In this document: positions 866-37,760 of the stretch, piece by piece | Position numbering within the stretch: the stretch's first letter is position 1 | How the letters are laid out: each line of letters opens with the position of its first letter | Assembly (NCBI RefSeq): GCF_015840915.1 | Contig: NZ_CP060398.1 | Span: 1,922,001-1,986,000 of the forward strand | Direction: 5' to 3' | DNA from: Synechococcus sp. CBW1002 | GTDB taxonomy: Bacteria; Cyanobacteriota; Cyanobacteriia; PCC-6307; Cyanobiaceae | Length of the DNA stretch: 64,000 nt | Translations under genes and position numbers: made by a program | The notes under the pieces: model-generated | The model's input: only the letters and a program-made list of their open reading frames with translations | What the model was told of the DNA's origin: nothing | The model's database searches: none

Positions 866-1729
866 ATGCAAAGATCAGCCCTACGTATACCTCGGTGTTT
901 ATCTGCAGCGCTGTCTATCACCGCATGGCTTTCGCTAGCAGCATGCACTACGTCCAGCCAGCAAAAAGATCTGATTTTGGGAATTCAAGGTGCTGGTGGA
1001 CTGACTGAAACAGAGCGCCAATTTAAGCCGCTGGCAGACTACCTGTCTCAAAGTCTATCTCGCAATGTAAAGGTTGAGGTCATGCCCTCCTATCAAGCGG
1101 GCATGAACAGCATTAAAATCCATAAATATGCAATGGCGAAGCTTGGCCCCTATGCTTATGCCACTCTTCCGGTTAATTCGGGCTACAAGCTATTTGCGGG
1201 CGAGAGCTCTAAGGGTCTACCCTACTATTACTCCGTCTTCATAGCTCGCGCTGACTCTAATATCAAAGAGCTATCAGACGCCCGCGGCAAGAGAGTTGCA
1301 CTTGGGGATCCTCTGTCGGCATCTCAGTCTGTCCTTATCAACCGAGAATTGGCTTCTCTAGGCCTTTCAGCGGGAGTTGACTATACGGTCGTTAGGCTTG
1401 ATAATCATAAAGCCATTCTTAATGCCTTGGCATCCAATAAGGCCGATATTGGCCCAGTCTCTTCGCGTTTTCTTCCCAAGATTCTAGCCGCTAGTCCTAC
1501 GCTTTTTTCTGATCTAGTTGTTATTGGCAACTCAAGGCGTATTCCAAATGATGCCTGGGTCATCGACAGCACGCTTCCCAGCGACCTGAAGAGCAAGATT
1601 GAAGATGCATTCTTCTCCCTTGATGACACCAAAGTTACTGAAGAAATAGAAAATGTTGATCTGTTCAGGAATGTCTCCGATGACGAATATGATTTTTTGC
1701 GCACCACTCCTAGGTCTGCCAAGAAGTAG
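866..1729 (+). CDS. PhnD/PhoX-type periplasmic substrate-binding lipoprotein
   Basis: A 287-residue protein of the phosphate/phosphite/phosphonate ABC-transporter binding-protein type (PhnD-like, type 2 periplasmic fold). The N-terminus has a basic start, a hydrophobic stretch and a lipobox ending LAAC at about residues 24-27, so it is predicted to be a membrane-anchored lipoprotein outside the cytoplasmic membrane. The pattern of family members is visible: LGIQGAGGLTETERQFKPLADYL near the N-terminus, AKLGPYAYA near residue 90, and DARGKRVALGDPLSASQS near residue 140. No permease or ATPase gene is adjacent. In the family such orphans may act as binding or sensor proteins. It is AT-richer than the right-hand backbone and begins a run of same-strand genes, the next start being 6 bases after its stop. 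The ligand cannot be told from sequence. Confidence 0.8.
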   Translation: MQRSALRIPRCLSAALSITAWLSLAACTTSSQQKDLILGIQGAGGLTETERQFKPLADYLSQSLSRNVKVEVMPSYQAGMNSIKIHKYAMAKLGPYAYATLPVNSGYKLFAGESSKGLPYYYSVFIARADSNIKELSDARGKRVALGDPLSASQSVLINRELASLGLSAGVDYTVVRLDNHKAILNALASNKADIGPVSSRFLPKILAASPTLFSDLVVIGNSRRIPNDAWVIDSTLPSDLKSKIEDAFFSLDDTKVTEEIENVDLFRNVSDDEYDFLRTTPRSAKK

Positions 1730-1735
1730 CTCTTG

Positions 1736-2977
1736 ATGTCTGCAATTGAAGCTGGTCAATATGACTTAATTATTGTAGGAGCCGGCTTGTCCGGATTAAG
1801 TCTTGCTTCCTCTTTGCCAAATCATTCAATCCTGATTCTTGAAGCGGAAGACTATGTTGGAGGACGAGTTTGCTCGCATCAGCTAGATGGGGTGTTCGCT
1901 GAACTCGGAGCCATCTTCCCTTTCAAATCAGCCAGACTTTCAGATTCTGATTCTATCCCACTTGCTAAGCCGCTTGGTTTGTATGAGAATGGCGTTCTCT
2001 ATCTTGGTAGCGATCCGCTTGAGGTTCTCCGCAGTGCCAACGGAGGCTTAACGCCTGATTTTGATCTGTTGGCATCTTTTACCAATCCATATATATCCCT
2101 TTTAAATGGGAAGCTTCGAATTCAAAATCAGTCGTTTGGAGATCTGAGCCGGTTCTCTGCACATATGAAAAGTCAGATTGATGCATTCCATAGGGTTATT
2201 CACCCCGAGTCTGTTAATCTATATTCTCCAGCGATTGTGGGTCATTCTCTTGTTGACTGGCCTTGTCTATTCAATGATGCGCCCAATACCAGCTTTGTCA
2301 ACAGTCTATTGGAGAGCTTAGGGGGGCGAGTCGCAGTGCGTACGGGATGTCTTGTGAGCCAGGTTTCGCCTGGTCCATTCGGACAGCCAGTGGTTCAGTA
2401 TCGGACTGGCTCCGATACCTTTAGTACTCAGTCTCGGTTCTGTGCAATTACTGCTCCGGCCAGCCAAATGCTCGGCATGTTGAAAGACTTCCAGTCGTCT
2501 AACTGTAGTTTCTACCGTGATGTGCTCTATGCCTCTGGCATGGTATGCGCCATGGTTGTGGACGAATCGTCTGATTTTCCGCGGTATATCGTTAGCACTG
2601 ACCAAATCTGGTCTTCCATGATACCTCTAACCCGTAGAGGCAAGACCATTCTACACTTTTATATCACTGGATCGCAAGCTGTTTCTCTCTGGAGCTCTTC
2701 AGATGTTGAGATTGTGCGTAAGCTTGGCGAATCAATACGCTCAATCGGTCTTGTTGAGAGATTCTTTGGCGCCACCGTTCGGCGATGGCGTGAACTTGGG
2801 CCCATACTTTCTGAACAGCTCAGGCTGAGCTATTATCCTAAGCATTATCGGCTTGCTCATAATCTTTGGTTTGCGGGTGAAATGGCTCTGTATACACCAT
2901 CTTCGCCCCTTAGCTATGGAATGTCCGCCGCGATTAAGGCGGGCAAAATGATTGCTTCTGATATATTATCCGCATAG
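1736..2977 (+). CDS. FAD-dependent amine oxidase-like oxidoreductase
   Basis: A 413-residue flavoprotein. The N-terminal Rossmann motif reads IIVGAGLSGLSLASSL at about residues 12-27, followed by an acidic residue ending beta-2 (LILEAE) and the GGRV motif (about residues 41-44) typical of flavin-containing amine oxidases, phytoene desaturases and related enzymes. The C-terminus has the second FAD-contact segment (LWFAGEMALYT, then SYGMSAAIKAGKMIA). I chose ATG 1736, although a TTG lies just upstream at 1733; either start follows the previous stop within a few bases, so the two genes are probably cotranscribed. The substrate is unknown. In a YcaO locus it could oxidise a peptide side chain or amine, but that is inference. 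Codon use is AT-rich like its neighbours. Confidence 0.8.
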   Translation: MSAIEAGQYDLIIVGAGLSGLSLASSLPNHSILILEAEDYVGGRVCSHQLDGVFAELGAIFPFKSARLSDSDSIPLAKPLGLYENGVLYLGSDPLEVLRSANGGLTPDFDLLASFTNPYISLLNGKLRIQNQSFGDLSRFSAHMKSQIDAFHRVIHPESVNLYSPAIVGHSLVDWPCLFNDAPNTSFVNSLLESLGGRVAVRTGCLVSQVSPGPFGQPVVQYRTGSDTFSTQSRFCAITAPASQMLGMLKDFQSSNCSFYRDVLYASGMVCAMVVDESSDFPRYIVSTDQIWSSMIPLTRRGKTILHFYITGSQAVSLWSSSDVEIVRKLGESIRSIGLVERFFGATVRRWRELGPILSEQLRLSYYPKHYRLAHNLWFAGEMALYTPSSPLSYGMSAAIKAGKMIASDILSA

Positions 2978-3012: not shown

Positions 3013-3954
3013 ATGCCATTGCTGCCACCTTTGATTAGGGCTCATGTCTACGAGCTTCGGGATGACAGGCCAGTCTTCATCCGAACCCTTATCGAGGGCG
3101 ACATTGCTTTTCATGGGGTTAGACTAAAGGCTAGCCGATGCAACCAACTTGCTCGCAACTTGTGGGAGCTGAATAGTAATGGGTTGTGGGAGTATAGCCG
3201 GGGCTTTGGGGTTACAATGGAGGATAGCGCGCTCGTCATTGACGGCCTCATAGACTCCGGCTGGAATGCTGACGCACTCAGAAACTGCGTTGATCTACTG
3301 ATTAGATCTTTTTACGCTCCCGATGATGGCGCGTTTCATACTCTTTTTCAAGGTCGATCTAAATACTGGCTTGGGCCTTCCCTTGAGGCTAATGCGTTTG
3401 CTGTGTATTTCATTGAGAAACTTGCTTCCAGCTCTCATTCCGAGGTAAAGGAGAGTGCATTGAGATATATTCTTGAACAGCCATTGTCTCCGGCTGGGTG
3501 GAAAGGGCGTTGGTTTCAGCAGCAGGCCCTTACGAATTATTACGTGCTACGCGCCCTTGCTGCTGTAGGTAGGGAGCTCCCCCATCTGATATCAGTTCTC
3601 AATCATATGCTGCAAAGTCAGTCTGCGGGCGGTTGCTGGAATAAGAGTGTCATCTCCACCTCTTTAAATGCCTTGTCTATCGCTTGCTTGGTTGACATCT
3701 TGCCAGCCAGTGTTGCCATGCCACTTGATCCACTGAAAGCTATTTTCAAAGCGGAATCCTGGCTTGGAAGTGAGGGTGGTCTCGCCACGCATGGCGAACC
3801 CATCCTTTATTATTGGTATGAGACTGCGAGCCTTTTTTGCGGGATTGGGGGAAGGAGAATCTTCTATCACTGTGAAGATATAGGTGAGATAGGGAGTGCT
3901 TTTCGGCAGTTCAGCTTGAGAGAGATTGCCTTGAGTTTATCAGGAAGCCGCTAA
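3013..3954 (+). CDS. Alpha/alpha-toroid protein with prenyltransferase/squalene-cyclase-type repeats
   Basis: A 313-residue soluble protein of repeated amphipathic helices. Recognisable QW-like repeats include LWEYSRGFGVTMEDSALV near residues 58-75 and MLQSQSAGGCWNKSVISTS near residues 199-217, the pattern of terpene-cyclase/prenyltransferase toroids. The DXDD acid motif of class II cyclases is not seen, and the protein is about half the length of a squalene-hopene cyclase, so a single-barrel toroid is more likely than a full cyclase. It lies 35 bases after the flavoenzyme gene on the same strand and ends shortly before ISAs1. Such folds also serve in peptide modification (LanC is a toroid), so a role in peptide tailoring is possible but unproven. 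No signal peptide is seen. Confidence 0.6.
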   Translation: MPLLPPLIRAHVYELRDDRPVFIRTLIEGDIAFHGVRLKASRCNQLARNLWELNSNGLWEYSRGFGVTMEDSALVIDGLIDSGWNADALRNCVDLLIRSFYAPDDGAFHTLFQGRSKYWLGPSLEANAFAVYFIEKLASSSHSEVKESALRYILEQPLSPAGWKGRWFQQQALTNYYVLRALAAVGRELPHLISVLNHMLQSQSAGGCWNKSVISTSLNALSIACLVDILPASVAMPLDPLKAIFKAESWLGSEGGLATHGEPILYYWYETASLFCGIGGRRIFYHCEDIGEIGSAFRQFSLREIALSLSGSR

Positions 3955-8835: not shown

Positions 8836-9765
8836 ATGAATCTGTCTTCTAAACTTGCCGCCTTAATTCAGGAGCACCCCAGTCTGAGCTATGGTGAGTT
8901 GCATGACATGCTTTGTGATCAAGGCTGGGCACTAGAACCGCTTACTGTCGAGGAACATAAATTAGCCAATCAAGTGCCAGGATGGAAGGCTTTAATCATC
9001 CTTTGTGTGAATGCACAGCTGTCAGAGCGAAAGGCTCAATCGTTTCCACAGCTGATTCCGACTGGCGAGACGCTTTGTCGTGACAAGCTTGTTTCCTCTG
9101 TAGTGATAGCCAAGATGCTTTCTCTTTATGAGGACCAAATCCTGATTCGAGGAGATGGTCCGCTTTGTCTGGCTGGTTACGTGTCTGATCCCAGCCTGCA
9201 GCTATCTCAGGCACTTATTGATATTGCAAAGAGTGTTGTTGCAGACCTTGCGCACAGTTCTTTATTGATTGATCAGTCTCTCCTTGGCGAATCTATGGTT
9301 CTGCTTATGAATCGTTGCTTGCTCCGCCGAACCTATCCATGCTATGAAATTAGTCAGAGCTCAAAGAATAAGAATAATCAGGACTGGCATCAAGATAGTA
9401 GTCTTGTGTATGGTGGGAGGCCTATGTTGACTCTGTGGATCCCATTGCAAGAGTATTCCGGTCAGAAGATACCGGGAATTGAACTTGCTAGTCTTAGGTC
9501 AGGCTACTTTTCGTCGCATTTCGGAGATGGTATCGAGAACCTGGCAGATGTTTCCAAGGATTTCCCAGATGAAACCGTTTCTACGGTCATTCCACGCCTC
9601 AATGCTGGTGGGTATGCCGTTTTCAACGGACTAACATATCATCGCACATATGCCAACAATGGCATGAGTAGCGCTCGCGATGCCTTGTTGATTAGGATTG
9701 CGCCTCGTTCCCATGCAGGCTACTTTCCTGGTGATCGCTCCAATGATATTGAGTTTAGGTTGTGA
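8836..9765 (+). CDS. Phytanoyl-CoA dioxygenase-like Fe(II)/2-oxoglutarate oxygenase
   Basis: A 309-residue protein with the PhyH-type metal site. The segment DWHQDSSL supplies His185 and Asp187, followed by LTLWIPLQ. LTYHRTYANN supplies the distal His269, with Arg281 in ARDALLIR as the likely 2-oxoglutarate ligand. PhyH-type enzymes hydroxylate or otherwise oxidise small molecules and, in some pathways, peptides. The N-terminal 100 residues are extra to the catalytic core and unrecognised. The gene follows ycaO on the same strand and overlaps the next gene by four bases (GTGA), so the three form one transcriptional unit. Peptide or amino-acid oxidation in the YcaO pathway is inferred from context. 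Confidence 0.78.
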   Translation: MNLSSKLAALIQEHPSLSYGELHDMLCDQGWALEPLTVEEHKLANQVPGWKALIILCVNAQLSERKAQSFPQLIPTGETLCRDKLVSSVVIAKMLSLYEDQILIRGDGPLCLAGYVSDPSLQLSQALIDIAKSVVADLAHSSLLIDQSLLGESMVLLMNRCLLRRTYPCYEISQSSKNKNNQDWHQDSSLVYGGRPMLTLWIPLQEYSGQKIPGIELASLRSGYFSSHFGDGIENLADVSKDFPDETVSTVIPRLNAGGYAVFNGLTYHRTYANNGMSSARDALLIRIAPRSHAGYFPGDRSNDIEFRL

Positions 9766-10610
9766 ATGTTGAGATATTAGGGTCGGGTCCTGTTGCGCTT
9801 AGCTATGGCCACTGGCTTGCATGGCGCGGTCATAAGGTACGTCTCATAAGGAGCGATTTAATTCATTCACGTGAATCCCCTCCACTTCTTACTTGTGAGC
9901 TTGAGATGGGTGGGCGGAGGATAACCCAGCTTGATCTCTCTTTGGCATGCATACCCCACAACCAAGTATCTTCGCTACCTTTTGATCCCGATATCATTGT
10001 CATTGTAGCTGTTCCAGAGTCTCTATCGGGCTATCTCTCGTATTTGCTTTCCGATGGCACCGCCTTCAAGCCTGTAATCTTGCTGACTAGCTGGCAGAAG
10101 AAGCTTGGTGAACTTGTCACGCAATTGCCTTTCAACTGTCTTCCTGCTTATCCTCTAATCTGCTGTGAGGAATGGGCTGGTAACCTAGCAGCAGTGGGTG
10201 GTCAGTGGCTTGAAGTCGATGAGTCACTTGCCGGTTCTACTTATGGGCTTGGCTCGATCAAGATGCTAGAGCAGTTAGGCTTTGGCATCAGGCTCATTCC
10301 AATGAGCAAACGTTTCAGGGCTCGTTTTGCGCAAACGTCTTTTGCATACTCGTATCTACGTAGCCACCCATCCTATGAATATTCTTTTCCCGTTATTGGC
10401 TTTGATGTCGCCAGCGCCATGCCTAGGCTAAGGATTCTGCTTGCCTCCGAATCCGATCTGCTCTCTGAGGTAGACTATATTACTTCACTCTTGGATAGTC
10501 TTTGGGGTCAACGGTTTCAAAGCGGTACTCAAGGCTGGATACTTGACACTCTGATGCGACACAAGTCTGGCAAGACTGATTACTTTCTTGAAAGGCTCTG
10601 GCTGGGTTGA
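9762..10610 (+). CDS. NAD(P)-dependent dehydrogenase resembling ketopantoate reductase / opine dehydrogenase
   Basis: A 282-residue protein starting at GTG 9762, which overlaps the oxygenase stop as GTGA. Residues 4-30 form a nucleotide-binding Rossmann start (ILGSGPVALSYGHWLAWRG followed by HKVRLI), with the GxGxxA-like spacing of ketopantoate reductases and opine dehydrogenases. A later segment VIVAVPESLSGYL fits the end of a Rossmann sheet. The C-terminal half is helical but carries no conserved signature I can name, so the substrate is open. Likely role: reduction of a keto/imine group or oxidation of an alcohol made by the preceding oxygenase; this is inference from the operon. Confidence 0.6.
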   Translation: MNVEILGSGPVALSYGHWLAWRGHKVRLIRSDLIHSRESPPLLTCELEMGGRRITQLDLSLACIPHNQVSSLPFDPDIIVIVAVPESLSGYLSYLLSDGTAFKPVILLTSWQKKLGELVTQLPFNCLPAYPLICCEEWAGNLAAVGGQWLEVDESLAGSTYGLGSIKMLEQLGFGIRLIPMSKRFRARFAQTSFAYSYLRSHPSYEYSFPVIGFDVASAMPRLRILLASESDLLSEVDYITSLLDSLWGQRFQSGTQGWILDTLMRHKSGKTDYFLERLWLG

Positions 10611-10647: not shown

Positions 10648-11715
10648 CTAAGTATGTTGTTCTACAAGGCGAACATAAGACTTTAGCCTTGCCTTGGAAT
10701 CAGGCGAGAAGATAATCTTAATGTGGTTTAGCTTGGCAACTCTTGTCTTGGTTGCTATTCTCTCTGCCCCATCAAGAAAGCCGCGCATTTCAATGCCCTT
10801 TGGCAAGTAGCTCAGCAAGCTTGAGATGCTCTCGATCTGAGCTGAATCGACCTTAAAAACGTCGCCAACCAATCGATGAACTGTTTTAGGGAGTGCACGA
10901 CCCAAGAGGCCTTGAGGATGGATTTCGATTCCGATTTGTGATAACAAAATATCGCTGTCAAGGTCGATGTCAACACTGGTTGCTGGGCGCAGATAGTTAC
11001 CATGTTCTTTAAGGATTGTAGAGTATGACTCCAGATCAAGGTCCCAGGAGTCATTGGTAATGCTAGCTAAATATTGGATATGCGAGTCAATCTGTGTTGG
11101 GCATAGATGTTGCTTCATGAGTTTTAGGTACGAGCCTCGACCGCACATGAGACCAATCTGGGCCGCATGGCCTAATAACTGATAGAAATGCCGTACAGTT
11201 TTTGAGCATGCTATGCTTCCTTCCCCAGATTGCCAAGATTCGAGAGTTGAAACGATTTTTTCCCAATCCCCTGGCTGCACTTCTCCATTTGATCTAACCA
11301 TCTGCCATATCCCTGCCATAATAAGATCGTCGCTTCCTTGGTCGAACTCGATCCAGTTCTCACATGGAAGATACAGCCCTGGCCCTGCGAAGGAGAGGTC
11401 ACATCCTTCAATGCAATCTCTTTGAACCTTGGGCCACCATTCTGGCACTATTCGCCTGCGCCCACCATTGGCGAATTGCTTAGCATTGCAATATACTAGA
11501 TAGTCGGGGTGAGAGTCGGGCTTGTAGTGATGATATTCAAAGCCGCAGGTGGTTTCGTTGGTCTCATACAGTTGATCAAGCTCTCGAGCAAGTAAAAGAG
11601 CTTGAGCGTACTTGTTTGCCCCCGTTTGGTCAGTGCATTCAGATACATACCATTCTACAAGGCTTGCATGAGATGCTCGTGGATTGGATTTCAGGTTGTT
11701 AGGAGTGGTTGCCAT
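10648..11715 (-). CDS. Unknown 355-residue protein, convergent with the YcaO operon
   Basis: The frame opens as far back as 11793, but ATG 11715 (MATTPNNLKS) is the more natural start because the preceding stretch is basic and cysteine-rich with no ribosome-binding site. I do not recognise a family. Visible features are an aromatic-rich first third (EYHHYKPDSHPDYL), a segment LSFAGPGLYLPCENWIEFD near residue 107, and a pattern DIDLDSDILLSQIGIEI HPQG near residue 250 followed by a helical C-terminus. No signal peptide or membrane segment is seen. It ends 37 bases from the dehydrogenase gene with no clear terminator between them, and it shares the AT-rich codon use, so it probably belongs to the same locus. 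A role as peptide-binding or tailoring partner is speculation. Confidence 0.55.
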   Translation of the reverse strand: MATTPNNLKSNPRASHASLVEWYVSECTDQTGANKYAQALLLARELDQLYETNETTCGFEYHHYKPDSHPDYLVYCNAKQFANGGRRRIVPEWWPKVQRDCIEGCDLSFAGPGLYLPCENWIEFDQGSDDLIMAGIWQMVRSNGEVQPGDWEKIVSTLESWQSGEGSIACSKTVRHFYQLLGHAAQIGLMCGRGSYLKLMKQHLCPTQIDSHIQYLASITNDSWDLDLESYSTILKEHGNYLRPATSVDIDLDSDILLSQIGIEIHPQGLLGRALPKTVHRLVGDVFKVDSAQIESISSLLSYLPKGIEMRGFLDGAERIATKTRVAKLNHIKIIFSPDSKARLKSYVRLVEQHT

Positions 11716-11852
11716 GCTTTGTTCTCGACGGATACGTTTGCAGGATATCTGCAACCGAGGCTTGATCGATCTAATACAAGCCTGGATGCCCAATTAAGTA
11801 GGTCAGCGTTGGTAGGCTAGGATTAACTTGGCACATATTCTAAGAGATCCTT

Positions 11853-13529
11853 GCTTGCGTCCCCTGTGTTGGTGTAAATCCCTGGGGACCTCAACCCCGG
11901 CGTAGCCGGGGTTGAGCGCGCACCTCAGACGTTCCGCTCAGCGGCCAGCGTTGCAAGGGGTGGGCAGGCCCGTGACCCTGGTTTGAGCACTACCTCAACC
12001 AGACGAACCATGCCCACGTCCAATCGTGCCGCAATTGAGCTGGCGCCGCTACTGGATGGCAGCAGCGCCGGTGAGCTGATCCCCGAGCTGGTGCGCCACG
12101 GCCTGCAGCAGCTGATCGAGCTGGAGGTCGCTGCCGTGCTCGGCGCAGAGCGCCATGAGCGCAGCGAGGAGCGGCTCGGCTACCGCAACGGCTACCGGCC
12201 GCGCACCCTGGCCACCCAGGTGGGGGACATCGATCTCCGCATCCCCAAACTGCGCTCCGGCAGCCACCTGCCCTCGATCCTGGAGCCGCGCCGCCGTGTG
12301 GACCAGGCCCTCTACGGCGTGGTGATGGAGGCCTATGTCGGCGGCATCTCAACGCGCAAGGTCGACGCCCTGGTGGCCGCCCTGGGAGTCCAGAGCGGCA
12401 TCTCCAAATCTCAGGTGAGCCGCATCTGCGCTGACATCGACATCCAGGTGCAGGCCTTCCTGAACCGCCCCCTTGAGGCCACCGGCTACGCCTACCTGTA
12501 CCTCGATGCCACCTATCTCCACGGGCGTCTCGGCAAGGCGATGCAGGTCTGCTCCAGGGCTGTGGTGGTGGCCATGGGCGTCAATGCCGATGGTCGCCGC
12601 GAGCTGCTCGGCATCAAGGTGGGCGACAGCGAAACCGAGAGCTTCTGGAGCGAGTTCATTGGCTCGCTCAAGGAGCGCGGCCTCACTGGGGTCAAGCTCG
12701 TGATCAGCGACGCGCACGTGGGCCTCACCAAGGCGATCCGGCGGATGCTGCAGGGCAGCTGCTGGCAGCGCTGCAGGGTCCATTTCGCCAGAAACCTGCT
12801 CCAACGGGTGCCCAAGGCCCACCAAGGCATGGTCACCGCTGCCTTGCGCTCGGTGTTCGCCCAGGAGAAAACGGACGAAATCGAGGCCCGCTGGGACGAT
12901 CTGGCCAGCTCACTGGTGGATCGCTTCCCCAAGGCTGCTGAGCTCATGCTGCACGCCCGGGAAGACGTGCTCGCCTTCCGTCACTTCCCGCCTCAACACT
13001 GGAAAAAGACTTGGAGCACCAACCTGCTCGAGCGCCTCAATGAGGAGATCAAACGCCGCACTCGGGTGGTTGGCATCTTCCCGAATGACGCCTCGATCAC
13101 CCGCTTGGTGGGGGCTGTGCTGCTGGAGCAGGACGAGCACTGGCAGCTGGAGGGCCGGCGCATGTTCTCCGCCGAGAGCATGGCCGCCATCCCCTCACTG
13201 GCGGAGCTGCCCACGCAGCCTTCCTTGCAAGAAGCAGCGGCCTGAGCCTCAGGCCCCAGGAGATCGCGCCGTAGCGCCCCCACAGGGCGCAGCGGCGGCG
13301 ATCACCGCCCGGGGGCCGGCACCGCAGACGTCACGACCAAGATTGCAGGTGTAGCCCACAACCGATCGGCAATCCAGACGAAAGACTTGACAAGTCAATC
13401 GTCTGGATTCATCGTGAAATAACGAGGTGCACATGCGCCTCGAGAATGACAGCCCGTCATTCACCCCTGTTCTCCCTCAGTCCAGGGCAATCGGGCCTCG
13501 GGATTTACACCACGCCAAGGGACGCGGCC
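11853..13529 (+). mobile_element. IS256-family insertion sequence, variant a (intact)
   Basis: Inverted ends share GCGTCCC and, 7 bases further in, GGTGTAAATCCC (11857-11882 and its complement at 13500-13525). An 8-bp direct repeat AGATCCTT flanks the element (11845-11852 and 13530-13537), matching the known 8-9 bp duplications of the family. The left end contains a GC-rich hairpin with arms CCCCGG near 11896-11912 that could block read-through transcription into the transposase. Pieces of the same variant reappear in reverse orientation at 25922-27439 and 37440-37598. Confidence 0.92.
12010..13245 (+). CDS. IS256-family (Mutator-type) transposase
   Basis: A 411-residue transposase from ATG 12010 (an in-frame ATG nine codons upstream is less likely because the other variants begin MPKTHR and MPNAYF). 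Motifs of the family are visible: YRNGYRPRTLATQVGDIDL near residue 58, YLYLDATYLHGRLGK near 165 with the first catalytic Asp, LVISDAHVGLTKAI near 233 with the second, and NLLERLNEEIKRRTRVVGIF near 339 with the catalytic Glu. The CRVHFARNLL segment is also typical. The frame is full length and undamaged. Confidence 0.93.
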   Translation: MPTSNRAAIELAPLLDGSSAGELIPELVRHGLQQLIELEVAAVLGAERHERSEERLGYRNGYRPRTLATQVGDIDLRIPKLRSGSHLPSILEPRRRVDQALYGVVMEAYVGGISTRKVDALVAALGVQSGISKSQVSRICADIDIQVQAFLNRPLEATGYAYLYLDATYLHGRLGKAMQVCSRAVVVAMGVNADGRRELLGIKVGDSETESFWSEFIGSLKERGLTGVKLVISDAHVGLTKAIRRMLQGSCWQRCRVHFARNLLQRVPKAHQGMVTAALRSVFAQEKTDEIEARWDDLASSLVDRFPKAAELMLHAREDVLAFRHFPPQHWKKTWSTNLLERLNEEIKRRTRVVGIFPNDASITRLVGAVLLEQDEHWQLEGRRMFSAESMAAIPSLAELPTQPSLQEAAA

Positions 13530-13636
13530 AGATCCTTGGAAAACCAGCGGTATTCATCCGAATGGGCAGCTTTTTGGAAGTATAAGCCGCGAACTACGCC
13601 CTTCGCCGAATAATTGAAGTGCCGAGTGAAAGACCC

Positions 13637-13783
13637 ATGCAATGCGCCAACACAGCGGCTGGCTATTCGTATAGAATGAACAACCGAAATGTACCGCTAA
13701 AAGTGAGGATTTGCTTCAGCTTCTTATTAGTGAGCCTTGGGACCAGCCCATTGTTGGCGGTAGGCGAAAACGTGGAGCGCTAA
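13637..13783 (+). CDS. Possible small exported peptide ORF
   Basis: A 48-codon frame (or 35 codons from the in-frame ATG at 13676) with a signal-peptide-like layout: basic NNRNVPLKVR, then hydrophobic ICFSFLLVSLGTSPLLA, then GENVER and TAA. The stop comes shortly after the predicted cleavage region, so it may be the beginning of a decayed exported protein. It lies in an otherwise empty stretch between IS256 and IS66. Evidence is composition only. Confidence 0.25.
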   Translation: MQCANTAAGYSYRMNNRNVPLKVRICFSFLLVSLGTSPLLAVGENVER

Positions 13784-13958
13784 TTCCAGCTTGCCCTAGA
13801 CTACCGGATAGCACGCAAGGCACCCAGTGGTCAGGAGTGCCTTGGTCGCCTCCATCTCGCAAAGCGCCTGCCAAGCTTTGGCGCTGACATGCAACATAAG
13901 ACCGGTTACATCGCTAAACCCACTTTAAATTCGAAGACTTGTAGAGGTACCTGGAAGA
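13784..13958. other. Intergenic stretch without recognised gene
   Basis: Together with 13538-13636 this is the non-IS sequence between IS256 variant a and the IS66 element. No frame with a recognisable product is present. Removal of IS256 joins it to the upstream flank of the unknown gene ending at 10648, so it originally formed the region upstream of that gene and may have carried its promoter. Confidence 0.4.
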
Positions 13959-14740
13959 GTACCCGTTCAGGGGGCGTGACGCAGCCGCGCAGCATTCCAC
14001 CCCTGATCGTTGATCAACGAGCGACCACAGACACCACGATCGATGACAGCCGATTCAGGGATTCGGCAACAGCGATGGCATCTCACCGCCGCGATGATGG
14101 GCGATCAAGGCCTGCTCCACGAACTGCCAGATATCACGGCCCTGTTGCCGCAGGCTGGTGGTGACCGTGAGCAGCCTGCTGCGGCAGATCGCACCCTGGC
14201 GGGATTGGACGCCATGGCTGATCTTGCGCTGAATCACCGAATGGCGCAGGGCTCGCTCTGCAGCATTGTTGGTGGGTTCGATGCCTTTGATCTCCAGAAA
14301 CGTCCACAGCCCATCAGCCACCTGGAGCAACTGCCGGCAGGTGCCAACCGTTTTGGCCCACGGCGTTCGCTCGCCGCGCTGGTAGCCCAGCTCCACCACC
14401 CGCTGCAAGGTGCCCACAAACGCCTGGCGGATCGGCCGGCAGCCCTGCTGCAACATCGGCCAATCGATCGTCCCGTCCTTCCACTGGTGCCACTGAGCAA
14501 ACAGCTGCTGCTGCAGTCCCAGCAGCTCCGCTCCAATCTCACCGCTGGCGCCCGGGCGTTCGGCGAGGGCGGTGAGATCGCGGCTCACGTGCGCCCAGCA
14601 CAGCTGGCGCTGCTCCCCAGCGGGAGATGGTTGTAGGCGGAGAAGCGGTCGCTCACCACGTAGACGCAGTCTTCCGCGGAGCGGTTGCCGCCAAAGGCAT
14701 TCCCGAGCAGCGCGATCGCAGCGGCTTTCGAGCGGCTTAG

Positions 14741-16110
14741 GAGTTTGCTGAAAAACCAACCCACGAGCCAGTTTTCCACAGGCATCAGTGGATTTCCGGC
14801 TCAAAAAGACGGATCGGCGGCTATCAGAGCCGCAAACAGCCCGATTTCGGCATCGTTGGCCTCTCTGCAAGGCATTGGTTGAGGCCTATTGGGCACACCT
14901 CTGGACAACGGGCTGTTCATGCCGCCTCCATCGCGGGCTTGAGCAGGTTGCCCAGGCGGATCAGGTTGTAGGCGATCACATGCAGGCCAAACACGGCGCC
15001 GACCTTCTCGGTACCGCGCAGTTTGAACTGGCGCAGCCCTCCGAACGCCTTGATCCAACCAAACACCTTTTCGATCCCCCGGCGGGCGTTGATCGATTTG
15101 GAGTAGCCCACGTGACGGGTGGTGCGGCCATCAATGGCTGAGCCACCGCTGCGGGCCGTGTTCTGGGCCACGTGGGGCGTGACACCGATCCGCCGCATCT
15201 CAGCGACAAACCCTTTGGTGTCGTAGTTCTTGTCGGCGCCGACGGTCTTCTGGTGGGCACCGGTGAGGTCTGCTGCCATCTCTTTGGCGGCATCCCGCTC
15301 ACCGGTGCCCGTGGCCTGGGTGACGCGGCAATCGACGATCAGGTCGTGGCGGTTGTCCATGAGGACATGGCCCCGATAGCTCAGCTGCGCTGGATGGGCA
15401 TTCGATTTCCGGGCCAGCCGTGCCTCAGGATCGGTGCTGGAGCGGTGGGTCTCGTTGCTGAGCTTGATGCCGCGAAAGTCCCCTTTGGCGCGCTTCTTTC
15501 CCTCTTTGGGAGCACCGAATCCTTCGCCAGGACCTGTGGGCGGAGGCGGAGGATCCTCCTGGCCATCGATCCGCTCCAAGGAAGCGTGTGACGCCCAGGC
15601 CTGGAGCAACGTGCCGTCCACCGAAAAGTGCTCGTCACTGAGCAGCGGTTTGACCTCGGGTGCTCCCATCAGCTTCTCCAGGAACAGCCCCATGACGTCG
15701 TCAGTGAGGAGCCGATCACGATTCTTGGTGAATGTGGTCGGATGCCAGATCGCATCGTCAGGGCTCAAGCCCACAAACCAGCGGAACAGCAGGTTGTAGT
15801 GGACCTGCTCCAGCAGCAGCCTCTCGGAGCGGATGCCGTAGAACGCCTGCAACAACGAGGCCAGCAGCAGCTGCTCTGGCGGCACCGATGGTCTCCCTTC
15901 TGAGGCATACAACCTGCAGAAGGTGGGATTGAGTCGATCGAGGGCCTGATCCGCCAGCTTGCGAATCCGCCTGAGTGGATGGCTGGTCGGGATCCGCTCC
16001 TCGATCGAGACGTAGGAGAACAAGGAGCCGCTGCGCTCCTGCTGACCTCGCATCAAACCTGGGGCAGTTGCCCTATTTTCGCAGAGGCGGCGGGGTTTTT
16101 CAGCAAACTC
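14741..16110 (-). mobile_element. IS5-family insertion sequence (1370 bp)
   Basis: Near-perfect inverted ends, GAGTTTGCTGAAAAACC at 14741 and its complement ending at 16110, are flanked by TTAG on both sides (14737-14740 and 16111-16114), a typical IS5-family target duplication. It is inserted in the transposase gene of the IS66 element. Confidence 0.92.
14917..16056 (-). CDS. IS5-family transposase
   Basis: A 379-residue transposase with an undamaged frame. The N-terminal domain (LFSYVSIEERIPTSHPLRRI, then RLYASEGRPSVPPEQLLLAS) and the FSVDGTLLQAWAS segment near residue 147 with the first catalytic Asp are characteristic. TVGADKNYDTKGFV near residue 275 gives the second Asp and IEKVFGWIKAFGGLRQFK near residue 335 the Glu. 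It has an insert of charged and proline residues (EDPPPPPTGPGEGFG) between the first two acidic positions. Full length and probably active. Confidence 0.9.
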   Translation of the reverse strand: MMRGQQERSGSLFSYVSIEERIPTSHPLRRIRKLADQALDRLNPTFCRLYASEGRPSVPPEQLLLASLLQAFYGIRSERLLLEQVHYNLLFRWFVGLSPDDAIWHPTTFTKNRDRLLTDDVMGLFLEKLMGAPEVKPLLSDEHFSVDGTLLQAWASHASLERIDGQEDPPPPPTGPGEGFGAPKEGKKRAKGDFRGIKLSNETHRSSTDPEARLARKSNAHPAQLSYRGHVLMDNRHDLIVDCRVTQATGTGERDAAKEMAADLTGAHQKTVGADKNYDTKGFVAEMRRIGVTPHVAQNTARSGGSAIDGRTTRHVGYSKSINARRGIEKVFGWIKAFGGLRQFKLRGTEKVGAVFGLHVIAYNLIRLGNLLKPAMEAA

Positions 16111-17164
16111 TTAGTCCTTGCATGAACACCGTCACCATGGCGGTCACCATGACCCACTCCCAGCCGCGCCGGCCATCGGGGCTGCCACCATCGGCATTAC
16201 CGGTGGGGGCACCGGTTTCATCGACGTAGACCACCGGCTGCTGACGGGCAAACGCAAGGGCCTCCTGCATGGGCTGCTCCAGTGCTGCACTCAAGCGCTG
16301 GCGGATCGTTGCGATGGCGCTGCGGCTGATCTGCACCCCCAGCAGCTGATCCAAAAGCGCCTGGGTCTTGCTGAAACTCAACGGGAAGGCACTACCCAGC
16401 AGAGCCACCAGAGCACTGAGCCGGGGGCCGTAATGGCTCGCTTCCACCTCCGCCGGTACCGAGGCACAGGTGCTGGTGGAACAGCAGGGGCACACCAACC
16501 GGTGCATCCGGTGTTCGATCACCACGGCTGTGATCGGTGGAATCTCGATCACCTGATGGCGCAGCGGCTCTGGATCCACGCCTTCCAACCGCTGACCGCA
16601 ATGGCGGCAAGCTTGGGGGTGGCGCTCCACCACCTCATCCACCCGCTCGATCGGCAGCAGCTCCGGCCCAGATCCGGGATGGCCCGGCTGGCCGCCGCGC
16701 TTGCGGCCACTGCCCTTGCGCCGCTCGGGCGGCTTAAACCCCGGCCCATCACTGGAGGGAGGCTTGGAGGAGTTGCGGGAGCTGCGGCCGATCCGCTCGC
16801 GCAGATGGGCCAGTTCGGTGGCCAGGGCGGTGAGTTGGACGCGGAGCTGCTCGATCTCCTCCTGTTGAGCTCGTAGCTCCCCCTGCTGATCCAGGATGAA
16901 CTCCCTGGCACCAGCTGGCCAAGACAACCAGTCCGCCTCGGAAATGCCAGCAGGAGGGGCGCCCATCTCAAGCAGTCTCTATCTGAGATGCAAGCGGGAA
17001 TCAGAACGCCGTCAAGGGTTCAGCAGAGACGAAGTTCGCCGCGTGCTGTCCCGACCCCTGAACGGATACATCTACCTGAGCTGCAGGACATACCGATCGG
17101 CACCCAGGCCGGTGTAAGCCGCAATGGTTGTGCTAATATGTTGAATGAGTATTGTACCCCTCCA

Positions 17165-17500
17165 ATGACGGAAGAACAACTCCCCCAGTCCTTCCTGGAA
17201 TTCTTGGAAGCCGTCAAAGGCGATAGCGCCCTGCAGGAGCGCCTCAGTGCGGCTGCAGACCTGGATGCCTTGGTGGCCATTGCCAAGGAAGCTGGATATG
17301 CGATCAGCAAGGCTGAGATCACGAAGGCTCAAGGGATGGCCAGTAGTGCCATGAGCGAACTCAGCGATGAGGCACTGGCAGGCGTTGCAGGCGGCGCGTG
17401 GCAAGGGCCTGATAACGTGTCTGAACTACAGATCACATCGCCCGCGCCCGGCGGCGTGGATTTCACAAGATTAGTCTTCATTCAGAGGATTGGTCAGTAG
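17165..17500 (+). CDS. Nif11-type leader peptide: RiPP precursor
   Basis: A 111-residue precursor of the Nif11/nitrogen-fixation-like leader family. The leader begins MTEEQLPQSFLEFLEAVKGD and contains the family helix AIAKEAGYAISKAEI. It ends with ELSDEALAGVAGG at residues 65-77, a double-glycine cleavage site recognised by C39 peptidase exporters. The 34-residue predicted core starts AWQGPDNV and ends LVFIQRIGQ. It has no cysteine but contains two Ser and two Thr, so a lanthionine or thiazole product is unlikely. A frame extends upstream to 16988 inside the IS66 end; ATG 17165 is chosen because Nif11 leaders start with M(S/T)EEQ. A paralogue remnant lies at 37599. The YcaO enzyme in the same island is the natural candidate modifier. 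Confidence 0.85.
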   Translation: MTEEQLPQSFLEFLEAVKGDSALQERLSAAADLDALVAIAKEAGYAISKAEITKAQGMASSAMSELSDEALAGVAGGAWQGPDNVSELQITSPAPGGVDFTRLVFIQRIGQ

Positions 17501-17572: not shown

Positions 17573-17601
17573 CCCCCTGTCATCGCCGGGGGTTTTTATT
17601 T
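17573..17601 (+). terminator. Rho-independent terminator after the Nif11 precursor
   Basis: CCCCC at 17573-17577 pairs with GGGGG at 17588-17592 across a 10-base loop, followed by TTTTTATTT. It lies about 70 bases after the stop of the precursor gene on the same strand and suggests that the precursor is expressed as its own unit. Confidence 0.65.
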
Positions 17602-22239: not shown

Positions 22240-23304
22240 TCACGGCCAGCCGCTGATCACCTGATCAAGCCGTTGCTGGCAAAGCCAGTGCAAACGTTGC
22301 ATGGCGGACTCGGGCCTGAGCAGATCGGGATATTCCTGGAGCAAGGCCTGCAGTTCCTGGGCTCGCTCCATCACCAGCCGAAGTGCCAGGCGAGCATCGC
22401 AAGCATCCAGTTCAGCCACGTAGGTGCCCCAGCGCCCGCCTGGCAGGGGTTCGCCGTTGGGATCAAGGCCAAGGCAATGGCCAAACAGCTCGGCATTAAA
22501 TAGGCCCATGGCCGCCACCATCCCCATGCAGTCGGCGACCAGCTCATCGAGCAGGTTCAGCCGCATCTCACCCAGCAGGCGCTTGGTGGCCAGATGGGTG
22601 AGTTCATGCTCCAGCCTCAGGGCCGTGGAAGTCTCCAACCAGGTGTCCTTGCTAGGCATGCCCGGCACATGCTGTGCTGCCACAGATCCATAGGGTGCCT
22701 CATGCAAGAGGATCAGCTGGGCGCGGCTCTTGGGCCCGAAGCGGCGGATCAGCCCCCAATGGATCAGTCCACTCACGGCTTGGGCGTGGACCCCATGGGC
22801 CAATGCAACGGGTTCGCAGCGATGGGCCAGGGCTCTCACCAGTAGGCAAAAGTCAGACCAATCGGGGGTGAGAAGCACCGGCATGGCGCCGCAGGGATGG
22901 GCCGCCACCCAGAGCCTCAGGGACCCGATCTGTTGCCACACCGGCTCCGGACCAACCGCCTGCAACGCAGCCGAGGTGCCCTCTTCCCCGCGCAGCACCA
23001 GCCGCCGATAGAGCTCACTGCTGCGGATGTCGGCCACCTGGGGCAACAGCAGCTGGGGCAGAACCGACTGCAGGGTCTTCACAAGCCGATCGCCCAGCAG
23101 CAAACCGGAGGGAGCGTCCGCGATCACCTGGCGCCACCAGTCGATCGTGGTGTCATTGGCCAGGGGATGCTGTGGCCAAGGCTCGCTGGCCCCCTGGAAG
23201 CCCTGGCAGTAAGCAACGAGCGACTGCTGGGCCGCCGTGGCCTGACCATCCCCCCGCCACCCTGATGCCCCGTCCAAGTCGTCACCTGCCGCAGGGGCAT
23301 TCAT
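22240..23304 (-). CDS. Putative zinc-metalloprotease-like protein with HExxH motif
   Basis: A 354-residue soluble protein without signal peptide or membrane segment. Around residue 233 it reads LRLEHELTHLATKRLL, containing HELTH, the HExxH zinc-binding motif of gluzincin/metzincin-like peptidases, and about 18 residues later LLDELVADCMGMVAAMG, where Glu/Asp could supply a third ligand as in many cyanobacterial conserved proteins of this layout. It is GC-rich and codon-biased like the backbone, unlike the AT-rich cargo. Its neighbours are IS256 variant b and a degraded IS3, so no operon context helps. The fold assignment rests on one motif only. Confidence 0.5.
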   Translation of the reverse strand: MNAPAAGDDLDGASGWRGDGQATAAQQSLVAYCQGFQGASEPWPQHPLANDTTIDWWRQVIADAPSGLLLGDRLVKTLQSVLPQLLLPQVADIRSSELYRRLVLRGEEGTSAALQAVGPEPVWQQIGSLRLWVAAHPCGAMPVLLTPDWSDFCLLVRALAHRCEPVALAHGVHAQAVSGLIHWGLIRRFGPKSRAQLILLHEAPYGSVAAQHVPGMPSKDTWLETSTALRLEHELTHLATKRLLGEMRLNLLDELVADCMGMVAAMGLFNAELFGHCLGLDPNGEPLPGGRWGTYVAELDACDARLALRLVMERAQELQALLQEYPDLLRPESAMQRLHWLCQQRLDQVISGWP

Positions 23305-29587: not shown

Positions 29588-29702
29588 ATGGCAGCCAAGG
29601 AGTGACACCTTCCCTGAAAGTTACCGTAACGGACTCGGAGCCAAGGGGTTGCATCATCCCGTTTGGAGTCTCCCATCAACTGCCTACGGCAGGAGGAATG
29701 GG

Positions 29703-30756
29703 ATGACAACAGACAAGCCGCTACCGATTACCAAGGTGATGGTCTGGAAGGCCTATCAACAGGTGAAACGGAACGGACAGGCGGCCGGTGTGGATGGCCA
29801 AAGCCTGGACGACTTCAACAAGGATCTGGAGAATAATCTCTACAAACTCTGGAATCGGATGGCATCAGGAAGTTATCTTCCGCCACCAGTTCGGCGTGTG
29901 GAGATTCCCAAATCCGGTGGAGGCGTCAGGCCGCTGGGTATCCCGACGGTTGCTGATCGCATCGCACAGATGGTGGTCAAGCAGGTGCTGGAGCCAGAGC
30001 TGGAGCTGATCTTTGATCAGGATTCCTACGGCTACAGACCGGGCAAGTCAGCGCATCAGGCAGTAGAGGTCTGCCGTCAGCGCTGCTGGAGGTCCAACTG
30101 GGTTCTCGATCTCGACATCAAGGGGTTTTTCGATGCTATCGATCACGACCTGTTGATGCGCGCGATCAAGGCCCATACCTCCGAGCGCTGGGTGGTGCTC
30201 TACCTGCAACGATGGCTGCAGGCACCGGTTCTGTTGCCGGATGGCACGCTCCATCCCAGGGACCGGGGCACACCGCAAGGTGGTGTCATCAGTCCACTGC
30301 TGGCCAATCTGTTCCTGCACTATGCGTTTGATGTGTGGATGCGCCGGAGCCACCCGGCCATTGCCTTTGAGCGCTATGCAGATGATGTGATCTGTCATTG
30401 CCACAGCGAGAAGGAAGCTCGGCGGTTGCTGGAGGCATTGCAGGATCGCTTTGCGTCCTGTGGCCTCCAGCTTCATCCCCAGAAGACCCAGGTGGTCTAC
30501 TGCAGGGATAGCAACCGCCGGGCACCGCTTGCTGATGTCACGTTCACGTTTCTTGGTTTCGCGTTTCGGCCACGTGTGTCTCGCAATTCTCGCGGAGTCA
30601 TCTACACAGGCTTTTTGCCGGCAGTGAGTCCGCAGGCTCTCCAGCGTATGCGGGAGAGGATTAGGTCGATAGGGCTTCCATCGCTCGTGTATCTGTCGCT
30701 TGAGGAGATCGCTAAAGTGCTGAATCCAGTGATTCGTGGCTGGATTCAGTACTATC
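29703..30756 (+). pseudogene. ltrA: Group II intron reverse transcriptase/maturase, C-terminally truncated (copy 1)
   Basis: The protein starts at ATG 29703 behind AGGAGG (29692-29697). Reverse-transcriptase blocks are visible: GVDGQSLDDFN, RRVEIPKSGGGVRPLGIPTV, VLDLDIKGFFDAIDHDLL, GTPQGGVISPLLANLFLHYA and AFERYADDVICHCHSEKEA with the YADD active site. The maturase domain X begins (ISLPSLVYL-type segment) and reaches IRGWIQYY, then the frame runs into unrelated codons from the Fic fragment. Unlike copy 2 its RT domain has no frameshift, so the polymerase half could still be made. Confidence 0.87.
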
Positions 30757-31140
30757 GAGTCCGCCCTGCTCTGGTTGTCGAGGCAGCGACGTCCAAGCCC
30801 ACTTCAGGAGGCCTGGCTGCGTCGCCTTCACCGCGAGATGTTCGGCCAGAGCTGGCGGTGGGCCGGCCAGTACCGCACCAGCGACAAAAGCATTGGTGCC
30901 GACTGGCGGCAGATCCGGATGCAGGTCCCGGCCCTGTTGGCTGACATCGCTTATCAGGTGGAACATCGGGTGGCGTCGGTGGATGAGATCGCCGTGCGTT
31001 TCCATCACCGCCTGGTCACCATCCACCCCTTCCCGAACGGGAACGGTCGCCACGCACGGCTGATTGCCGACGTGTTGATCGAGCAGCTGGGGGCTCCACG
31101 CTTATCCTGGGGAGGTACAGGGACGCCTCAAGGTCGCTAG
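30757..31140 (+). pseudogene. Fic-domain protein fragment (mobile mystery protein B type)
   Basis: The frame visible from 30736 encodes SPLQEAWLRRLHREMFGQSW, then WAGQYRTSDKSIGADWRQIR and FHHRLVTIHPFPNGNGRHAR. HPFPNGNGR is the Fic active-site loop (His, with GNGR for ATP binding), and the surrounding pattern is that of the Fic proteins called mobile mystery protein B, which occur on mobile elements with an HTH partner. Fic enzymes usually transfer AMP to protein targets. The N-terminus is cut by the junction with the group II intron at 30757 and the C-terminus ends early (GGTGTPQGR), so it is a remnant. The partner gene (protein A) is absent. Confidence 0.75.
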
Positions 31141-31601: not shown

Positions 31602-32927
31602 TTATGCAAGGGTAAAGACGTCAGTCAGATTTTCCCGGGCGAGGATGTCATGGTACCGCTGCAACAGATTTCCCAGATTAGAGGCGTCAAAGTCGAAGTT
31701 CATTGCTTTCCTAATGCGCTCATACTGCTGGGCAATGTAGCGCCAGCGCTTCTGCGTGAGCAGTCCGGCGCCGAAAGGAGGTAACTTCATAGGCCATTCC
31801 ATCTGCCCCCAAGACGCCATTAGGTCATCAATATTCGTCTGCTTGTCTGAGAGCTCGGGGTGGGACAAGGCCATTGTTAAAATTTGTTTGCAGGAATGAA
31901 GAGTAACGGTCAAGATTCCTTTTTTGTCCGCATCTAGCATTTCAGGAAAGATTAGAAACTGGCCTTTAATGTAGTCTTCTATCGTCATCCTTGTTAACTC
32001 TCGGATGAACGCCTGAGCTTCGGGGCTGGCCGCCTGGTATAGGGCTAGGCCGATATCGAAGGACGTAGTGAAATGGCGCGCTTCGTCATGGAGGTGACCT
32101 TGGTTAATGCTATAAGCCAGGGGCTCGTAGTTGAATTTTTCTTGGTCTGCAAACAGATATGATTCAGCCTGCTTTAGATCAACATTTCTAATATATCGGA
32201 TCAATAGCCATAAGCCTCCCAGGCCAAGAGCCAGGACTTCGTTGGAAGGCAGAAGACGCATAGCGTCGCCAATCAGGAAATGTTGAACACGATAGCGAAA
32301 ATCACGACCGCCCTGTTTCATTTCGTTCAGGAGTACTTGCAAGCCTCCATTTTTTTGGAGCAACTCGAGAATGCGTAAGTGCTCTTCAGTGAGGGTGAAC
32401 TGAGTATCAATAGAATTGTAATCACGCTGGGGGATAGAGCCAACCACGCCTCTGAAGAATCCAGGTGCGTCAAAGGGCTCAGATGTCCCTGTCTCTCTGG
32501 CAACCATATTATAGGCGGCGCGGAAGGTCCAGATGTGATCCATCTCCTCACTTGTTTCCTGGTGGAGAATCATATACTCATCTGAGTAAGGGTCAAACAA
32601 CTTCTCGGCAGCCGCCATATTGGAAACCAGAGTCTGTGATTCACTGTTGGCCACAGTCTTGTAGAAACTGGCGAAAAAACAGGCCGTTAAAATTGCGACC
32701 TGTCGACTGCTCAGTGACTTGAGGTGCTCGCATCGCTGCAGCGGCAGAGGCATCATATTTGGATTGGCATATAGTGCATTGCCAATTATTCCCTGGTTGC
32801 TCAGTGCAATCCCAAGGAACTTCAACTCCATGGGTTCGGCGTGAGCCCTTTCGAACAATCGGTTTTGTATCGCTGTCAGCTTGTTGTTCAGGGCAACACT
32901 TTTTTTGGGGGCAGCAGTGCGCGTCAT
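31602..32927 (-). CDS. AurF-like diiron oxygenase
   Basis: A 441-residue ferritin-like diiron protein related to the p-aminobenzoate N-oxygenase AurF family. Iron ligands can be proposed: Glu124, Glu128 and His131 in HQETSEEMDHIWTF, and His278, Glu282 and His285 in GHLHDEARHF. These helix motifs (E...ExxH and H...ExxH) are the diiron signature. AurF-type enzymes oxidise amines to hydroxylamine/nitro groups, and relatives hydroxylate carbons. The protein is somewhat longer than AurF. It is followed directly by a [2Fe-2S] ferredoxin gene. Its AT-rich codon use matches the YcaO locus, from which it is separated by IS elements. A shared pathway is inferred. Confidence 0.75.
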   Translation of the reverse strand: MTRTAAPKKSVALNNKLTAIQNRLFERAHAEPMELKFLGIALSNQGIIGNALYANPNMMPLPLQRCEHLKSLSSRQVAILTACFFASFYKTVANSESQTLVSNMAAAEKLFDPYSDEYMILHQETSEEMDHIWTFRAAYNMVARETGTSEPFDAPGFFRGVVGSIPQRDYNSIDTQFTLTEEHLRILELLQKNGGLQVLLNEMKQGGRDFRYRVQHFLIGDAMRLLPSNEVLALGLGGLWLLIRYIRNVDLKQAESYLFADQEKFNYEPLAYSINQGHLHDEARHFTTSFDIGLALYQAASPEAQAFIRELTRMTIEDYIKGQFLIFPEMLDADKKGILTVTLHSCKQILTMALSHPELSDKQTNIDDLMASWGQMEWPMKLPPFGAGLLTQKRWRYIAQQYERIRKAMNFDFDASNLGNLLQRYHDILARENLTDVFTLA

Positions 32928-35570: not shown

Positions 35571-36110
35571 GTGTGTCACGAGTCAGCAGGTGAAAGCCAA
35601 GGCTGATGAAACTGCATCGGGGATGGGAGTGTGGCCTCCCGGGATCGGCCTGCAGGGGCTGGTACCAAACCACCCCGTGCTGCTGCGTTCAAAAGACGTG
35701 GTGGTGAGCGACGGGGAAACGGCGGACTGGATCCGTCAGGTGTGCGACGAGAAGGTGAGCGCAAGCGAACCGTTGATGACGCGCCGATATCTATTTCAGA
35801 CGCTGCCAAAACGGGAGGCGGCCCAAATCTCCTGGATCAGTGTGGACAGAGCCTGTCTATGGACCACACGGCAGCCGGCGTATAGACGGCACGAGCTCAT
35901 CGCAGGCCCTGATGCGGAACGTGAGAACCTGCCATGGAATGCCAAGGGAACATCCCAAGTGGTCACCACCATGAGGGTCAATACCGATGTCTGTGGCAGG
36001 GGCGGAGCAACCCGTAGTAGCGATGATGGGTCTGTAACGGACTCGGAGCCAAGGGGTTGCATCATCCCGTTTGGAGTCTCCCATCAACTGCCTACGGCAG
36101 GAGGAATGGG

Positions 36111-37439: not shown

Positions 37440-37598
37440 ATGGTTCGTCTGGTTGAGGTAGTGCTCAAACCAGGGTCACGGGCCTGCCCACCCCTTGCAA
37501 CGCTGGCCGCTGAGCGGAACGTCTGAGGTGCGCGCTCAACCCCGGCTACGCCGGGGTTGAGGTCCCCAGGGATTTACACCAACACAGGGGACGCAAGC
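37440..37598 (-). mobile_element. Left end of IS256 variant a (3' exon of intron copy 2)
   Basis: This is the exact reverse complement of the first 159 bases of the variant a element at 11853 (through the AT of the transposase start codon), ending with the terminal GGGGACGCAAGC at 37598. It includes the CCCCGG hairpin near 37541-37557. Its terminus lies inside the Nif11-type gene that follows. Confidence 0.9.
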
Positions 37599-37760
37599 GC
37601 AGACCTGGATGCCGTGGTGGCCATTGCCAAAGAGGCTGGATATGCGATTAGCAAGTCTGAGATCCTGAAGGCTCAAGAGATGGGCAGCAAGGCCATGACC
37701 GAACTCAGTGATGAGCAACTGGCAGGCGTCGCAGGTGGCTCATGGGCGGGAAATGAATAG
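37599..37760 (+). pseudogene. Second Nif11-type precursor, N-terminus removed by IS256
   Basis: From 37599 the frame encodes ADLDAVVAIAKEAGYAISKS, then EILKAQEMGSKAMTELSDEQ and LAGVAGG, a close paralogue of the leader at 17165, followed by only six residues, SWAGNE, before TAG. About 31 leader residues are missing upstream because the IS256 end replaced them. A fused frame starting at 37557 inside the IS could produce a shortened leader, but the conserved N-terminal helix would be absent. The short core either is the natural product or is itself truncated. It shows that the locus once had at least two precursors. Confidence 0.78.

Follow-up and report, generated by a model that had tools for sequence, protein, structure and literature searches.

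A Cysteine-Free Nif11-Type Precursor and Its Probable Place in a YcaO Gene Cluster Scattered by Insertion Sequences in Synechococcus sp. CBW1002

Which enzymes, if any, act on a Nif11-type precursor with a cysteine-free core in a Synechococcus genome that has a single YcaO gene? Earlier work has described N11P precursors and NHLM exporters, as well as Nif11 clusters that contain a YcaO (PMC2887384; PMC4603692; PMC10783134; PMC8120280). The window analyzed here is a stretch of 64,000 nucleotides (bases 1922001-1986000 of the single-contig 3.85-Mb genome, G000), and coordinates are numbered within it unless a contig or locus is named (Table 1). The focal gene, precursor a, occupies 17165-17500 on the forward strand, begins with ATG at 17165 and translates into 111 amino acids. 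It scored above the curated cut-offs of both TIGR03798, leader_Nif11 (3e-18, 65.8 bits; cut-off 32.3) and PF07862 (2.4e-12, 47.4 bits; cut-off 23.8), which excludes a chance open reading frame, and the TIGR03798 match together with the double-glycine-type site GVAGG places it among the Nif11-derived RiPP precursors. An earlier sequence-only reading of this DNA had described a Nif11-type precursor with a leader ending in GVAGG and a 34-residue core without cysteine, and both parts of that description were borne out by the family score and the translation. The core, AWQGPDNVSELQITSPAPGGVDFTRLVFIQRIGQ, contains two serines and two threonines and ends in RIGQ; cysteine is absent from core and leader alike.

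Table 1. Features of the window that bear on the focal precursor, with their positions, strands and supporting evidence.
Feature	Position	Strand	Evidence
PhnD/phosphonate-type periplasmic binding protein adjoining FAD gene; cluster membership tentative	866..1729	+	PF12974 1.4e-48
FAD-dependent amine-oxidase-family protein	1733..2977	+	PF01593; 70% orthologue in G230 cluster
Weakly squalene-hopene-cyclase-like (SQHop-like) protein, paired with FAD protein	3013..3954	+	PF13243 E 8e-4, below cut-off; 76% in G230
YcaO protein, 389 aa	7640..8809	+	PF02624 4.9e-34; only YcaO in genome (genome scan)
PhyH-like Fe(II)/2-oxoglutarate dioxygenase	8836..9765	+	Mycetohabitans homologue at 32% across 97% of length
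Rossmann-type NAD(P)-binding protein, gene overlaps dioxygenase gene	9762..10610	+	69% orthologue in G230, same order
381-aa protein of unknown family (363 aa from internal start), conserved cluster member	10648..11793	-	76% in G230
Insertion sequences, IS256-, IS66- and IS5-type, between 381-aa gene and focal gene	11853..17070		Repeat map, transposase Pfam hits
Nif11 leader of precursor a, residues 1-77, ends GVAGG	17165..17395	+	TIGR03798, PF07862; ProcA-like in leader tree
Core of precursor a, residues 78-111, 34 aa, cysteine-free, plus stop	17396..17500	+	Translation
Hairpin and T-run, intrinsic-terminator-like, 3' of focal gene	17574..17600	+	Consensus match only (17574-17592)
DUF7005 protein, HExTH motif; cluster membership tentative	22240..23304	-	PF22541 4.8e-48
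Second copy of precursor, 5'-truncated so that leader starts at residue ~31; core SWAGNE	37599..37760	+	IS256-type end at 37598 cuts gene

The genome contains at least three intact precursors. Two further GG-type Nif11 precursors lie upstream of the window, c (open reading frame ending at C1:1909092) and b (C1:1909139-1909453), the latter with a hydrophobic, glycine-rich core. A second precursor inside the window, overlooked by the sequence-only reading, is the truncated copy of a, which reads ...GVAGGSWAGNE* and whose leader is 82% identical to the focal leader over 49 aligned codons (dN 0.115, below dS 0.282). All four cores open with [A/S]W after GG, which is AW in a and SW in the remnant. 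This start was present in 3/3 lineages here vs. 2/14 elsewhere (Fisher p ~0.015, small sample), and it is a suggestive mark of the cluster, with the small sample and the paralogy of a and its copy to be kept in mind. The cores of b and c also share a [VI]K end with proteobacterial precursors (AILIK, GMMVK, AALVK, AALIK) that is absent from the focal core.

The YcaO gene had been called an orphan. It is the sole YcaO of the genome, yet it belongs to a conserved exporter/YcaO/PhyH/Nif11 cluster of Nif11/NHLM type. G230, a genome from the same family, has a compact form of this cluster (C1:2618179-2638127) with a YcaO 78% identical to that of the window, in the order TolC-like protein, HlyD, C39-ABC, ABC, YcaO, PhyH-like, Rossmann and 381-aa proteins, precursors d, b and c, an IS256-type element, SQHop-like protein and FAD protein. 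Identities between the two genomes were 81% for the PhyH-like, 69% for the Rossmann, 76% for the 381-aa, 76% for the SQHop-like and 70% for the FAD protein, and precursors b and c have orthologues at 79 and 74%. In the window genome, insertion sequences divide the same gene set, which extends over ~31 kb. Comparison of the two genomes gave an enzyme dN/dS of ~0.15-0.25, so these genes are under purifying selection. The cluster is rare, a close YcaO being found in just 2 of 400 genomes of the family (the window genome and G230). The expectation of a conserved leader and a hypervariable core, which the sequence-only reading had proposed as a check, was rejected for b and c, with cores 74-75% and leaders 74-84% identical between genera. 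The focal peptide has no orthologue in G230, where the slot beside the 381-aa gene holds the unrelated Nif11 precursor d.

The PhyH-like dioxygenase matched Pfam PhyH at E 0.01, below the cut-off, and its H-x-D ... H ... R residues were invariant in five aligned sequences. With two-sequence alignments as input, AlphaFold gave poor models of the 381-aa protein and the SQHop-like protein (pLDDT 32 and 39), and a sequence search of solved structures with the PhyH-like, Rossmann, 381-aa and SQHop-like proteins returned nothing usable. Scans of genome contigs did not turn up a named relative of either the precursor or the YcaO, and no RRE was identified. For the phosphonate-binding protein, the G230 counterpart consists of fragments beside the FAD gene, broken by an insertion sequence. 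In G119, a homologue (32%) of the DUF7005 protein is encoded close to an HlyD gene and an array of Nif11 precursors, and the protein may serve Nif11 systems as an oxygenase or protease.

The stretch from 11793 to the focal gene is nearly all insertion sequence: ~430 bases at 13530-13958 are unrepeated, an IS5-type transposase gene covers most of 14742-16118, and the focal gene begins 95 bases past the end (17070) of an IS66-type repeat. Were these elements removed, the 381-aa and focal genes would be close divergent neighbors. In G309 (locus L102, 14507-18473) a protein distantly related to the 381-aa protein (23%, 2e-15) is encoded directly beside four ProcA-type precursors, divergent as reconstructed here, and the LanM of that genome is 413 kb from this locus. 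Insertion sequences can thus conceal a cluster from tools that require gene adjacency. The IS-rich island that holds the focal gene also includes a weakly AurF-like (diiron N-oxygenase) protein (31602-32927, reverse strand) that is absent from the G230 cluster. A near-identical pair of group II intron-like reverse-transcriptase open reading frames was also observed (29649-30944 and 36057-37362, the second split into two frames).

Prochlorosins (ProcA/ProcM) are one of the closest known systems, sharing with the focal gene a ProcA-like leader, a double-glycine cleavage site and, in the LanM-bearing genomes G029 and G309, the same bacterial family. The sequence-only reading had found no LanM gene in the window, and this extends to the complete 3.85-Mb genome, which has no match to the LANC-like domain PF05147 and no LanM; homologous precursors beside LanM genes, which had been named as evidence against a role for YcaO, are therefore not present in it. 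In the leader tree, whose deep forks are weakly supported, the focal leader and that of the truncated copy grouped with ProcA-type leaders of G029, apart from b and c, and identity of the focal leader was 53-63% to the closest G029 leaders vs. 37% to b and 30% to c. Cysteine occurs in 12/12 ProcA-type cores from G029 and G309, and in none of the cores of a, b, c, d and the proteobacterial loci. On these alignments the focal gene appears prochlorosin-like by its leader (with the weak tree support noted) but not by its core, in a genome that is free of LanM.

Such a leader could mean that a prochlorosin system left the focal gene and its truncated copy behind as relics, with LanM lost or never acquired and the YcaO not acting on them. 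This would account for the grouping with leaders of the LanM-bearing G029, for the copy already truncated by an insertion sequence, for the missing orthologue in G230 and for a focal core without the [VI]K terminus. However, both cores lack the cysteine that all 12 ProcA-type cores of the LanM genomes contain, both open with [A/S]W as b and c do (a small sample), and the focal open reading frame is intact, is followed by a terminator-like hairpin and shows dN below dS against the copy over the 49 codons. We regard the relic explanation as possible though rather unlikely, and rank above it the probable reading that the focal peptide is an accessory substrate of the YcaO cluster.

Genes for an exporter were found in the last 6 kb before the window, comprising a C39-peptidase ABC protein (~1.5 kb from the window start), a second ABC protein and HlyD. 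Their best families were TIGR03796 (595 bits vs. cut-off 853), TIGR03797 (516 vs. 709) and TIGR03794 (88 vs. 156), respectively; with all three proteins under the equivalog cut-offs, the exporter is NHLM-like and not a strict member. With just 37-40% identity between the window genome and G230, the exporter is a possible case of exchange. A nearby C39 exporter, together with the hydrophobic, glycine-rich core of b, would also suit a bacteriocin-like peptide that is cut at GG and exported with its core untouched by the enzymes. That explanation we consider very improbable, given that six enzyme or unknown genes have been kept at 69-81% along with precursors in G230 and that two proteobacterial classes also have the YcaO/PhyH/Nif11 set.

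This recurrence was seen in the relatives of the YcaO protein. The nearest YcaOs in a plasmid collection (30% identity, full length) lie directly after Nif11 precursors in Rhizobium, and further relatives were found in Sinorhizobium medicae, beside an array of Nif11 copies, and in Mycetohabitans rhizoxinica. In a midpoint-rooted tree of 12 sequences, to be read with a long-branch warning, the window and G230 YcaOs joined the Nif11-adjacent, partnerless YcaOs of Rhizobium, Sinorhizobium and Mycetohabitans with support of 100/99, and this clade stayed apart from TfuA-paired YcaOs, including the second YcaO of the same proteobacterial loci. Clade members share an insertion around W-x-x-x-EA ... 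LP-x-x-R-x-x-GG that the TfuA-paired group is missing, and the YcaO ATP-binding motifs are conserved. Each of the Rhizobium, Sinorhizobium and Mycetohabitans loci has a second, TfuA-paired YcaO and a PhyH homologue, and the annotated Rhizobium and Mycetohabitans loci additionally hold ThiS/MoeB, a methyltransferase and LanM. Between the Rossmann protein and the product of the equally placed Mycetohabitans gene, only the nucleotide-binding motif aligned, so this link depends mainly on gene order. All precursors read in these proteobacterial loci have cysteine-free cores, the shortest of which, TIMAAALVK and TPMAAALIK, have one threonine and neither serine nor cysteine. On a Sinorhizobium medicae plasmid (locus L107, 1722-4562) seven Nif11 copies stand in tandem, four of them intact with identical SGTIMAAALVK ends and the rest frameshifted or end-altered.

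YcaO proteins phosphorylate a backbone amide oxygen; the attack that this allows gives an azoline when it comes from a side chain, a thioamide when it comes from sulfide and an amidine when it comes from an amine. For the cluster examined here, no TfuA (PF07812) match was found in the window genome or G230, and neither an E1-like partner/ocin-ThiF nor a SagB dehydrogenase was found among the cluster genes scanned with Pfam/NCBIfam. The window YcaO reached 72.6 bits against the SagD family TIGR03604, below its cut-off of 219, and its nearest HMM was the methanogen thioamidation family, with a score far under that family's own cut-off. Because the cores are cysteine-free and mostly poor in serine and threonine, and no SagB or E1-like partner was seen among the scanned genes, thiazole chemistry is unlikely, and the YcaO step is probably not the usual YcaO ring formation.

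Classical azol(in)es (TOMM/LAP) could still be formed on serine and threonine of the focal core, which offers two of each to a YcaO with conserved ATP-binding motifs, and YcaO plus Nif11 clusters of marine Synechococcus have been assigned azole chemistry (PMC10783134). Against this stand the lack of an E1-like/ocin-ThiF partner and SagB dehydrogenase among the cluster genes, the low SagD score and the single threonine in the shortest clade cores, and we think this outcome improbable. More likely, the backbone amide is modified in another way, to a thioamide, amidine or oxazoline. We favor such a modification together with hydroxylation by the dioxygenase, given that core cysteine is absent and no SagB or E1-like partner was seen among the scanned genes.

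The reading we consider probable makes the focal gene one of the Nif11-type RiPP precursor genes of a single YcaO cluster that insertion sequences have scattered. In its favor we counted the synteny with G230, purifying selection, the near NHLM-like exporter, the clade shared with PhyH-bearing loci, the cysteine-free cores, the gap made up almost wholly of insertion sequences (compare G309) and the absence of LanM; against it, the ProcA-like leader, the missing [VI]K end and G230 orthologue, an exporter below cut-offs and 37-40% identical, and the lack of an RRE. Cluster enzymes would recognize the leader, and YcaO with ATP would activate a backbone amide. The PhyH-like 2-oxoglutarate dioxygenase, probably by hydroxylation, and the Rossmann and FAD proteins may then tailor the peptide further, before the NHLM-type C39 transporter would cleave after Gly-Gly and export the core. 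The suggestion of the sequence-only reading that YcaO modifies the focal peptide is plausible, but the best-supported YcaO substrates are probably precursors b and c, outside the window, and not the focal peptide. A more tentative and somewhat doubtful proposal is that YcaOs of this clade, acting with a PhyH-type dioxygenase and no TfuA or E1-like partner, install a backbone modification undescribed in RiPPs on cysteine-free Nif11 cores, and that the enzyme accepts ProcA-type leaders besides its own.

The cluster can be set against several known systems. With the N11P/NHLM systems of Haft, Basu and Mitchell (2010; PMC2887384) it has in common a TIGR03798 leader ending in GG, HlyD with two ABC subunits, and paralogous precursors; those systems are paired with cyclodehydratase-docking fusions or LanM, whereas here a partnerless YcaO stands with a PhyH-like protein and the exporter falls under the NHLM cut-offs. 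Nif11 precursors are also known from TfuA-YcaO clusters of Rhizobium and others, with a PhyH-family gene among the cluster annotations (PMC8120280). These thioamidated RiPP clusters and the proteobacterial loci share with the cyanobacterial cluster the YcaO clade, the PhyH-like dioxygenase, a cysteine-free Nif11 core and, in b and c, the [VI]K end. However, the cyanobacterial cluster has no TfuA, second YcaO, ThiS/MoeB or LanM, adds the FAD, SQHop-like and 381-aa proteins and a C39 exporter, and its focal core is longer with a different end. LAP/YcaO clusters of marine Synechococcus (PMC10783134) resemble it in being picocyanobacterial, with YcaO and GG-type leaders, but have SagB-like dehydrogenases, cores rich in cysteine, serine and threonine, and LynD/TruD-like YcaOs.

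In the limited literature collection searched, no paper was found on either the partnerless YcaO clade or the cluster in cyanobacteria. The YcaO of the cluster belongs to an uncharacterized branch, and the product parts of its peptides are without cysteine, so the standard thiazole reading of a YcaO with a Nif11 precursor does not fit. A stray precursor and an orphan YcaO thereby become a defined module of Nif11 precursor, partnerless YcaO and PhyH-type dioxygenase, found in cyanobacteria and two proteobacterial classes. Its chemistry is directly testable, as the short core TIMAAALVK offers few possible sites. The focal leader points to a possible use of ProcA-like leaders in systems other than those with LanM.

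Distant cyanobacterial YcaO matches in G119, G048, G367, G022 and G678 were set aside, since they have an adjoining TfuA and those included in the final tree fell outside the clade. One of these genomes holds two further loci with Nif11 precursors. In the first (G119:C26, locus L088, 4689-14024), a TfuA-YcaO pair and a Nif11 precursor occur with a radical SAM/SPASM protein, a 2OG oxygenase and a tryptophan halogenase. The second (G119:C17, locus L090, 8678-10300) has four Nif11 precursors with short cores all ending in tryptophan (e.g., WFDNWRVRIRGGSGW), near a FAD halogenase-like gene and a flavoenzyme.
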